The notes below the pieces were generated by a model. That model worked only from the letters and a program-made list of their open reading frames with translations. It was not told where the DNA came from and did no database searches. From Elusimicrobia bacterium CG_4_9_14_3_um_filter_62_55 (lineage in GTDB: Bacteria > Elusimicrobiota > Elusimicrobia > UBA1565): a DNA stretch of 38,145 nt. Shown here piece after piece: positions 1 through 5,104 of this stretch. The first letter of the stretch is position 1, and every line of letters starts with the position of its first letter. The stretch lies in assembly GCA_002790095.1 (NCBI GenBank), contig PFUL01000122.1, forward strand, positions 1-38,145, read 5' to 3'. A program made the position numbers and the translations under genes.

Positions 1-89
1 AGCCGTGTGAGTCGAATAGCTCATGCACGGTTAGAAAGGGGGGCTCAGGAAACCGGAGGCAGTGCGCCCACCGGCGCCTGAGCCCTACC
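1..89 (+). mobile_element. 3' end of a group II intron (domains V and VI)
   Basis: Positions 1-32 match a group II intron domain V: the AGC triad at 1-3, an outer helix AGCCGT (1-6) pairing with ACGGTT (27-32), a two-base bulge (GC, 25-26), then an inner stem (GTGAG, 7-11, with CTCAT, 20-24) and a GAA-containing loop. Domain VI follows as a 9-bp stem, GGGCTCAGG (41-49) with CCTGAGCCC (77-85). The intron should end at about CCCTAC or CCCTACC (88-89), one or two bases before the ATG at 91. The rest of the intron and any intron-encoded reverse transcriptase lie outside the window. The family is recognised from its conserved domain V pattern; the class cannot be assigned from this fragment. Confidence 0.8.
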
Positions 90-90
90 A

Positions 91-603
91 ATGAGCCTCA
101 AGCGCCTGCTCTTTTTGGCGGCGATCGCCGCCGTCTGCGCGGCCGGCCTGCGCGCGTTCGGCTTCGAGGGGATCTATGTCGCGACCGGTTCCATGGAGCC
201 GACGCTGAAGGTCGGGACGCATCTGATGCTGGACAAACTGACTTTGCTCGTGCACGATCCCCGGCGCGGGGACATCGTCGTCTTCGTCGCTCCGGTTCCG
301 CCGCACGAGGAGATGATCAAGCGCGTGATCGCCGTCGGCGGCGACCGGGTCGAGATGCGGAAGAAACGGGTGTTTCTCGACGGAACGGAACTCGACGAAC
401 CGTTCACGCAGCATACCCGCGGAAAGGAAGTGCTCCGCGGCGACAGTTTCGAGCCGGAAGCGGTTCCCGACGGCTATCTGTTCCTGCTCGGCGACAACCG
501 CGACGAAAGCAATGACGCCTCCGTTTGGCGCGATGAGGACGGCGACCCGATTCGTTTCGTGCGTTCGTCCCGCGTCCGAGGCCTGGTGAGAGGTTTCTAC
601 TGA
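91..603 (+). CDS. lepB: Signal peptidase I
   Basis: Membrane-anchored serine protease (170 aa) of the S26 family that removes signal peptides from exported preproteins. One N-terminal transmembrane segment (about residues 4-22) is followed by the catalytic SMEPTL box with nucleophile Ser34, the general-base lysine Lys77 in MIKRVIAVGGD, and the GDNRDES box at 134-140, so all core motifs are present. It is compact, near the small end of the family. The ATG at 91 gives a normal cytoplasmic tip plus membrane anchor, so the protein looks complete although a group II intron ends just before it. No Shine-Dalgarno sequence lies at a normal distance; a GGAGG at 55-59 is over 30 nt away, inside intron domain VI. 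The stop overlaps the next start (TGATG). Confidence 0.93.
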   Translation: MSLKRLLFLAAIAAVCAAGLRAFGFEGIYVATGSMEPTLKVGTHLMLDKLTLLVHDPRRGDIVVFVAPVPPHEEMIKRVIAVGGDRVEMRKKRVFLDGTELDEPFTQHTRGKEVLRGDSFEPEAVPDGYLFLLGDNRDESNDASVWRDEDGDPIRFVRSSRVRGLVRGFY

Positions 604-2132: not shown

Positions 2133-3019
2133 TGCGCGTTCTCACGCCGGAAGTCCTGACCCGCCTCAAGAACTTTAAATTCGATCTGCGCCGCCACCGC
2201 GTCGAAGGGCATCTGACCGGCCGGCACCGCAGCTTCAAACGGGGCTTTTCGCAGGAGTTCGCCCAGCACCGTTCCTACGTGACGGGCGACGACCTTAAGC
2301 ATCTCGACTGGAAGGTGTACGCGCGCAAGGACCGGTTCTACGTCAAGGAATTCCAGGAAGAGAAAAGCCTCAAGACCTATCTAATGCTCGACCGCTCCGG
2401 TTCGATGGGCTACCGCGGCGCCGGGGACGAGAGCAAATGGGAGTACGCGCGCAGGTTGACGATGAGCATGGCCTACCTGATTCTCTCGCAGGGCGACGCG
2501 GCGGGCCTTCTGACCTTCGACACCGAGCGGCGCGACTACCTCCCCCCCCGGCAGCGGATGACGCATTTGGAATTGATGGATGCGGCCCTCGCGGACTCCA
2601 AGCCCGCGGGAGAAACCGAACTTGCGGGCGTCTTGGGCGGGATCGTCGGGTCTCTCCCCCGGCGTTCGCTGATCGTGCTGATCTCCGATTTATTGGGAGA
2701 CGCCGAACGGATTTTGGAAACGCTGCGCGTGTACGGCGCGCGCCGCCATCGGCTGGTGGTGCTTCAGGTGCTCGACCCGACCGAGCGCGATCTGGACCTG
2801 GACGGTCCGGTTCTCTTCGAGGGGATGGAGGGCGGGGATTCGCTGCGCTGCGAAGTCGCTTTGCTGCGGGACGCCTATCGCGAGGCGTTCCACCGGCAGC
2901 AGAAGCGCTACGAGGCGTCCTTTCACGATACCGGCGTTCACCACGCGGTGTTCTACACCGACGAACCTTGGCACCGGGGACTGGCGCGGTTCCTTGCCCG
3001 ACAGAGCGCCCGCGGATAG
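2132..3019 (+). CDS. DUF58 domain protein with VWA-like fold
   Basis: DUF58 family protein of 295 aa, the usual partner of MoxR ATPases. The GTG at 2132 (TAGTG overlap with moxR) gives an N-terminus of family length; an in-frame open stretch further upstream lies over moxR and was not used. The DUF58 signature is clear: HLDWKVYARKDRFYVKEF near residues 57-74, followed by a metal-site-like DRSGSM at 87-92 that resembles the VWA MIDAS motif. No membrane segment is seen, so it is probably cytoplasmic and docks on the membrane-bound VWA proteins downstream. The exact function is unknown. Confidence 0.9.
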
Positions 3020-3022
3020 ACA

Positions 3023-5104
3023 ATGTCCTTTCTGAACCCCGCGCTGCTTTGGTGGCTTCCGGCGGCGGCCGCGCCGATCGTTTTGCACCTGATTTTCATG
3101 CGCCGCGCGCGCCGGGTTGAGTTCAGCGATCTCTCATTGCTTCGGGCCGCCTACGCGCGGTCGCTTCCGGCGACCCGGCTGCGCCATTGGCTGCTGCTCG
3201 CGCTGCGCTGCTTGATGCTCGCGCTGTTGATCCTCGCCTTCGCGCGTCCGGTCCTCCACCGCCGCGCCTCCGCCGCCGCCGGATCGGAGAAGGGGCTCGA
3301 GTTGATCGTTCTCGTCGACGTTTCCTGGTCGATGCGGGCCGGGGTGCGGGGAAAGCCGCGTTTCGAAACGGCTCGTGCGGCGGCCGTCGAACTCGTCGGC
3401 ACGCTGAAGCCGCCCGATCGCGTCGCCCTCGCGTCCTTCTCCGACCGGCTTGAGTCGCCGCTCGCTTGGTCCGATTCCCCCGAGGCGGCGCGCGCGTCCT
3501 TGAGCCGCCTTCAGCCCGGCTTCCGCGGGACCGACGCCGGCTCCGCTCTCGCGGCCGCCTACGCCTTGTTCGCCGAGGACGACGCGAAGGCTCCGGAACG
3601 CAGGCGCGTGATCGTCGTGGTCACGGACGGGGCGCGCAACGCGTTCTCCTCGCTTTCGGTCAAAGGTCTTGAGGCGCTCCCGGGATACGATTCGGAGGTG
3701 ACGGTGCTCGGGATGGGACTCGAAGGCTCGGCGCCCAACTCGGCCGTTCTCGACGCGCGGCCCGGCGCCGCGGGCGCCGAGGACCGGGTCGCCCTTTCCG
3801 TCCGCACCGCGGCCTACGGGGAAGACGCGCGCGCGGGGTCGCTCGATTTGTGGGTGCGGGACCGCCGCGTCGATCAGCGCGCGGCCTCCCCGGATCCGGA
3901 GCGTCCGGCGCTCTTCCGTCTTCCGGAGAGCCGGGATGCGGATCATTGGGGGCGTTTCTCGCTTCGGGAAGACGCGCTCGCGCTGGACGACGACTATTAT
4001 TTCGCGCTTCGCATGCGGCCGCGGCCGAAGGTTCTGCTGGTCTACGGAAACTCGCGCTATCTCGAAGCCGGGCGGGGCGGCTATTTCCTGAAGAAGCTGC
4101 TCTCCGACGGGAAGCGCCTCCCGTTCTTTCTGGACGCCGTCGACTTTGGGAAATTCGCGAGAATCGACCCCTTTGCGTACGGCGCGGTATTGCTCGCGGA
4201 TTTCGAGTCCCTGCCCGAAGGCGTCGCGGAGACCTTGGAGCGATACGTGCTCCGGGGAGGCGGGCTTTGGCTGCTCGCGGGCACCCAGGCCGACGCGAAA
4301 ACCTATCGCGATCTCAAGCGGGTTCTTCCCGCGGCGGTCGGCGACCCCCGCCAGGTCGGGCCGCGGGGCCGCGCGCTCCGCGCGGACGCCGTGCCGACGG
4401 ACGAGACCGTTCTTCCGGCGCGTTTCTCGTGGGACGATTTTGAGCTTCAAAACGCGGCGGCTGAACGGGCCTATACCCTGCGACCGCGCAAGGACGCCGC
4501 GGTCTGGTTCCGGGACGGAGAGGGCGAACCGCTGATGGTCGCCGGGGGTTTCGGTTTGGGACGAGTGCTCGTGTGGGGCTCCTCGCTCGACATCGAGTGG
4601 TCGAATCTCGCGCTCAAGCCCGTTTTCACCGCCTGGACCGATGTCGCCCTGCGCTGGCTTTCCCGCTACTCCGGACGCGAGCAGTGGCGCACGGTCTCCA
4701 TCGGCGAGCCGATCGAACGGAACTGGGACGGCGGGGAGCAGGCTCCGGTGAAGGTTCAGATCCGCGCGCCGGGCGGCCGCCGTTCTTCGCTGCTCGTGAA
4801 GGACCGCAAGATCGTTTTTTCAGACACGCGGGAACCGGGGCTGTATTTTCTCCAGCCCGTCGGAGGCGAAGGGGACTCCCCCACCGAGGCGTTTGCGGTG
4901 AACGCGGACCGTTCCTCCGGAGAGTCGGATCTTTCTCCCGCGCCGCGCATGCCGTTTCACGCCCTTCTCAACGCCGGTTCGGTGCGGGAGGATTTTCTCC
5001 GCGCGGTCTACGGGCGGGAAACGCGCACCGCCGCGCTGGGACTCGTCATGCTGCTCGCGCTGCTTGAGGCGGCTCTCGCGCGTCCGCGCAGGAGGGGCGC
5101 ATGA
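3023..5104 (+). CDS. BatA-like membrane protein with VWA domain
   Basis: A 693-aa protein with the BatA N-terminal module: two membrane segments (about 4-26, starting FLNPALLWWL, and 55-75), then a VWA domain with the intact MIDAS sequence DVSWS at 99-103 and a second acidic strand ending VIVVVTDGA. The middle part resembles the amidotransferase-like and beta-sandwich regions of related proteins (KVLLVYGNSRYLE; GFGLGRVLVWGS), and the C-terminus carries a last membrane helix (LGLVMLLALLEAALA). The VWA domain should face the periplasm or outside between helices 2 and 3. The gene starts 3 nt after the DUF58 stop and overlaps the next gene by ATGA. Confidence 0.87.
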   Translation: MSFLNPALLWWLPAAAAPIVLHLIFMRRARRVEFSDLSLLRAAYARSLPATRLRHWLLLALRCLMLALLILAFARPVLHRRASAAAGSEKGLELIVLVDVSWSMRAGVRGKPRFETARAAAVELVGTLKPPDRVALASFSDRLESPLAWSDSPEAARASLSRLQPGFRGTDAGSALAAAYALFAEDDAKAPERRRVIVVVTDGARNAFSSLSVKGLEALPGYDSEVTVLGMGLEGSAPNSAVLDARPGAAGAEDRVALSVRTAAYGEDARAGSLDLWVRDRRVDQRAASPDPERPALFRLPESRDADHWGRFSLREDALALDDDYYFALRMRPRPKVLLVYGNSRYLEAGRGGYFLKKLLSDGKRLPFFLDAVDFGKFARIDPFAYGAVLLADFESLPEGVAETLERYVLRGGGLWLLAGTQADAKTYRDLKRVLPAAVGDPRQVGPRGRALRADAVPTDETVLPARFSWDDFELQNAAAERAYTLRPRKDAAVWFRDGEGEPLMVAGGFGLGRVLVWGSSLDIEWSNLALKPVFTAWTDVALRWLSRYSGREQWRTVSIGEPIERNWDGGEQAPVKVQIRAPGGRRSSLLVKDRKIVFSDTREPGLYFLQPVGGEGDSPTEAFAVNADRSSGESDLSPAPRMPFHALLNAGSVREDFLRAVYGRETRTAALGLVMLLALLEAALARPRRRGA

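Follow-up and report, generated by a model that had tools for sequence, protein, structure and literature searches.

The window, the whole 38,145-nt stretch of Elusimicrobia DNA analysed here, is contig C160 of a genome bin of 4.31 Mb in 202 contigs, and it opens, on the forward strand, with the 3′ end (domains V and VI; positions 1–92 or 1–93) of a group II intron. Domain V (1–32) lacks its 5′ side at the contig edge and is identified by its fold, by sub-threshold Rfam matches and by relatives that score above threshold; its AGC triad at positions 1–3 is predicted to pair with the GUU end. The domain VI stem (38–89), an architecture common to all relatives, carries a bulged branch-point A at position 87 in the predicted fold. 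The 3′ junction AATG (90–93), which does not vary among the eight host copies or the tabulated relatives, places the intron end at 92 (AAT|G) or 93 and includes the ATG (91–93) of a signal peptidase I-like gene on the same strand (91–603, 170 aa; TIGR02227, PF10502). The first residue of the encoded protein aligns with the first residue of an orthologue from the same genus.

As RNA, positions 1–92 fold with −47.5 kcal/mol (z = −5.4), an energy equalled by none of the shuffled sequences. The initial annotation had proposed a covariance search as a check; group II models match the window at scores below gathering (23.8 bits for RF00029 and 27.5 bits for the plastid group II D5 model), because the contig begins within domain V. 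Complete relatives exceed the gathering score for both RF02003 (domain I) and RF00029. Together with eight copies at 100% identity, these relatives confirm that the hairpin is not a chance fold, and the view that a group II intron adjoins the signal peptidase start codon is borne out by the fold, the host copies and the complete relatives alike.

Multiple copies in the host genome and complete relatives

The first 77–93 bases of the window have eight copies in the host genome, each at a contig edge, as is usual for repeats that an assembler fails to cross. All eight copies read TACCAATG, end in AATG and continue into differing sequence. Since they are identical through the AATG (position 93), the intron most likely ends at 92 (AAT|G) or 93 (AATG|) rather than at CCCTACC, where it had been placed at first. 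In six of the eight the junction ATG opens a recognisable gene, namely the signal peptidase, an S1-like protein, a sodium:solute symporter, a NAD-dependent epimerase, a Crp-like regulator and an aldo/keto reductase; at the other two, on C141 and C105, the frames are 32 and 48 codons long and belong to no recognised family. At the 5′ side, seven contig edges carry the same intron start, ATG|TCGTGCCCTGAAAGCTG, which aligns with domain I of the complete relatives. An RVT_1 profile search of the host genome found no reverse transcriptase in the assembly; most likely the assembly has a gap where a multicopy element lies, rather than the intron being protein-less. The same bin contains at least two other types of group II domain V, on contigs C4, C43, C73 and C89 (L009, L010, L011 and L014).

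A search for DNA similarity covering 196 genomes detected the element in the host and in five further genomes, with AATG at the end of every match. A domain VI pattern from which the ATG had been left out, scanned through the species genomes, identified eight loci that all end in TACCAATG, some of them additional to the earlier matches, in Omnitrophota and in a bin called Desulfomonile, and protein and plasmid searches added the Elusimicrobiota genomes G021, G056, G124 and G171 and the actinomycete Embleya sp. NBC_00896. The relatives thus span other Elusimicrobiota, Omnitrophota, Desulfobacterota and Streptomycetaceae; in viral contigs the 3′ pattern had no match, and the one reverse transcriptase that turned up is distant. 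Domain I (RF02003, 52–85 bits) and a group II reverse transcriptase/maturase (TIGR04416, RVT_1, GIIM) are present in the complete relatives L041, L050, L113 and L027, so that the intron 5′ end, domain I and reverse transcriptase for which a search had been proposed all exist in the family. The reverse transcriptases of L041, L050 and L113 are intact, and these three introns measure 1942–2004 nt from ATG to ATG; the reverse transcriptase gene in L027 has two in-frame stops. The proteins of L041 and L113, the two that were scanned, have RVT_1 and GIIM and no Pfam match to an HNH endonuclease. RNAalifold gave no reliable global model of domain I. In the protein tree, the start-codon members require at least two label changes, a number compatible with both a single origin followed by losses and repeated gains.

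The tabulated relatives read AATG at their 3′ junctions throughout, and an open reading frame of at least 60 codons begins at the ATG in 21 of the 24 tabulated junctions. Among the genes are gatB (in G068), a gene that is normally essential, a small F0F1-ATPase gene before ATP synthase subunit a, an RDD protein and BrnT. More distant intron relatives have different ends. One of these, L051 (G124:C35, 1175–1476), ends in CCAACG (AACG instead of AATG), with a 2dG-II riboswitch about 120 nt downstream; this intron perhaps sits at a transcription start that lacks a start codon. The sister introns L054, L055 and L056 (Elusimicrobiota G107, G252 and G011) lie directly after the stop codons of open reading frames, with the junctions ...VVR-TGA|GTGCC, ...VIK-TGA|GTGCC and ...VIK-TAA|GTGCC, respectively; two neighbouring intron lineages are thus found at opposite translation signals, start and stop. 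Streptomyces plasmid introns that at first seemed to be ATG insertions proved to begin before that point, at GTACGTCC, and were left out.

Start codons preceded by a −10 box

The 5′ junctions were pooled from 32 distinct loci, 31 of which are readable for the full −10 pattern; G068 contributes five, with ATG|GCGCGCCCAG, and G171 twelve, from two intron types. All 32 have an ATG at the junction, followed by GTGCG, GCGCG or TCGYG, the intron end being AAT or AATG according to the boundary chosen. Upstream, T−12 (26/31), A−11 (27/31) and T−7 (30/32) are strongly favoured, with a trend towards T−15 G−14, and most of the six bases before the ATG carry no information. The exact pattern TANNNT-N6-ATG is found at 24 of the 31 readable junctions, against a background of 0.69% of ATGs in 438 kb of host genome (p ~3e-46); this value gauges the pattern, not independent inventions, because the introns are related though their sites are distinct. 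The signature is that of a putative sigma-70 −10 element with a TG extension, with the A of the ATG as the expected transcription start. A −10 box six nucleotides before the ATG predicts that transcription starts at the A, i.e. that the target genes are leaderless. L035, L069 and L153 are exceptions, with a weak or shifted −10 box. A related 5′ fragment on a Streptomyces scopuliridis plasmid (L156, 3001–3350) follows a long palindrome (...GGTTCAGGCATG|GTGCG) and not a −10 box.

Zheng et al. (2011, PMC3160421) take a TANNNT whose first T lies some 12 bp ahead of the start codon as marking leaderless genes, a reading that experiments in Deinococcus support (PMC12340547). In the host genome, TANNNT occurs 55 times at a spacing of 6 from an ATG, compared with a mean of 28 at other spacings (p = 3.5e-6), and the ATGs so placed open frames of at least 100 codons in 65% of cases versus 38%. 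Intron-free homologues were found for the Embleya target (L113, gene at 2971–3405). When the flanks of the Embleya intron are joined, the site reads TACGGT-gcgtcc-ATGACCGAAACC (TACGGT-N6-ATG); an intron-free Nonomuraea homologue has TACGCT-cggccgc-ATGACCGAGACC (TACGCT-N7-ATG) and an intron-free Streptomyces homologue TACGCT-cgcacc-GTGACT (TACGCT-N6-GTG). The insertion lies exactly at the start codon, and the homologues imply that −10 box and start codon both predate it. The signal peptidase orthologue of the same genus has a −10-like TAAACT 9 nt, not 6, before its ATG, which makes it near-leaderless but inexact, and orthologues of the S1-like protein in related genera appear to be SD-led with GTG starts; both observations count against leaderless targets.

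These observations bear on what the insertion does to the gene. The initial annotation had supposed that the insertion would sever the signal peptidase gene from its leader, so that translation may need either splicing, to bring back the ribosome binding site, or an intron-borne signal, which could make an essential export enzyme dependent on splicing. In the targets of the family a −10 box precedes the ATG by 6 nt (24/31), and a lost leader is unlikely to matter because the typical target is predicted to have almost none. The sole intron-borne translation signal noticed is the AU(G) at the intron 3′ end; a GGAGG at 55–59, tried as a Shine–Dalgarno sequence, is misplaced, lying some 30 nt off within the domain VI stem, is not kept in relatives and was rejected. 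That the enzyme is essential is doubtful, since a second, better-scoring signal peptidase gene is located on contig C110.

Proposed splicing boundary and choice of site

The element is very probably a group II intron retroelement that lacks an endonuclease and inserts at the start codon of leaderless genes, the site being TANNNT, six bases, A(+1)TG. Its position, its multicopy nature, its recurrence in four phyla, the −10/ATG signature, the anatomy of the complete relatives and the intron-free homologues of one target are established as far as sequences can establish them. The intron would lie between AU and G, or just after AUG. As it begins with G (or with the base after it) and ends in AAU or AAUG, AUG is spelled at both junctions. 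The host promoter would transcribe the intron from a start at or beside the AUG, and splicing would rejoin the AUG to the gene and restore the native leaderless mRNA (N6-ATG-gene); an unspliced transcript would still keep an in-frame AUG at the 3′ junction.

An empty site has one ATG and an occupied site two, which means that the boundary can be read as AT|G or as ATG|. The former keeps G1 and an AY ending, the latter the GUGYG register and the usual branch distance. In every sequence read, the probable γ position in J2/3 is occupied by A, which mildly favours a final U, i.e. AT|G. It is important to point out that the 5′ exon would be only 2–3 nt long if transcription starts at the A; this is unusual for splicing and counts against the model. 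When EBS1/EBS2 pairing was compared between own and swapped exons, neither a preference for the own exon nor a consistent EBS2 pairing emerged. Most domain I sequences keep AACAU(A/G)A, with CAU in the probable EBS1 loop, and CATTATA, the loop sequence in L041, is complementary to TATAATG.

The intron might read essentially the start codon alone, through the CAU of the probable EBS1 loop against AUG, with the −10 signature arising by selection if insertions into leaderless genes are tolerated better than insertions between SD and AUG. The ATG at every one of the 32 5′ junctions and the conserved AACAU(A/G)A speak for such a reading, which we regard as possible rather than probable: splicing would restore both kinds of gene equally, so that a near-absolute filter lacks a clear reason, and information resides at the promoter positions −12, −11 and −7 and in the TG extension.

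The alternative, which we put forward tentatively and with somewhat greater doubt, is that reverse splicing of the intron particle takes place into the non-template strand where it is single-stranded within the RNA polymerase open complex. This complex melts the non-template strand from about −11 to +2/+3. At a leaderless promoter the melted DNA, from the −10 box to the ATG, would be the very stretch that marks the intron sites, and the promoter bubble would supply the single-stranded DNA for an endonuclease-minus intron. The element would then always land where it is transcribed, its terminal AU recreating the start codon. The promoter-bubble idea fits the polymerase-like information pattern of the aligned sites and the absence of consistent EBS2 pairing. 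Introns without an endonuclease do need single-stranded DNA (PMC8914252).

It is improbable that the insertions are dead or unspliced, with the downstream genes silent or expressed from promoters in the intron end. The reverse transcriptase missing from the host assembly and the stops in that of L027 could be taken this way, as could the 5′-truncated copy L028, but the identical host copies imply recent spread, the reverse transcriptases of L041, L050 and L113 are intact, and insertions sit at gatB and in the ATP synthase operon. L028 itself (G161:C31, ~3385–4662) still adjoins the start codon of the small gene before ATP synthase subunit a; without its 5′ part splicing should be impossible there, so that this locus could show, as a natural experiment, if the 3′ AUG suffices by itself. 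Bacterial group II introns are often intergenic, but that an ordinary intergenic intron abuts start codons by mere coincidence is scarcely credible given 24 tabulated 3′ and 32 5′ junctions at ATG, in distinct sites and genomes, and the different ends of more distant relatives.

Comparison with known introns and significance

Three insertion specificities of bacterial group II introns were distinguished in a 2015 review: homing sites, terminators and attC (PMC4424553). The introns with start-codon junctions share domains I, V and VI, the branch-point A and the reverse transcriptase/maturase with mobile introns that have IIB-like ribozymes (RF02003, group-II-D1D4-4; TIGR04416), but their insertion at a −10 box and start codon falls outside the three specificities of that review. 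Class C (IIC) introns likewise use a functional DNA motif that recurs, not a single homing site, and likewise have no endonuclease domain. The present family differs in its AGC triad, its IIB-like domain I and its motif, a promoter plus start codon; its junctions show a promoter −10 box plus ATG and not the terminators or attC of class C, apart from the fragment L156, which follows a palindrome. The stop-codon introns of Azotobacter groEL (Michel et al. 2007 as cited in PMC4465626) resemble the family in inserting at a translation signal and leaving the protein intact, and the sister introns in this phylum likewise sit at TGA/TAA, whereas the present family lies on the start-codon and promoter side. 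RmInt1-like introns (PMC8914252) also encode a protein without an endonuclease domain, so that single-stranded DNA is expected to be needed in both cases; the homing target of RmInt1 is an IS at replication forks, whereas the present sites coincide with the predicted promoter bubble. No description of start-codon or leaderless targeting was found in the literature searched, a body that excluded most subscription literature, Michel et al. included.

Insertion at the −10 box and AUG of leaderless genes, if true, would add a fourth specificity to those named for bacterial group II introns. The family suggests a way for a retroelement to multiply while leaving genes intact, and a source of open DNA for an endonuclease-minus intron; its predicted 5′ exon, only two or three bases long, poses a sharp question about splicing. 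With a member in Embleya, a sequenced relative of the streptomycetes, splicing, transcription start and targeting are directly testable. In uncultured phyla, intron insertions may mark leaderless promoters.
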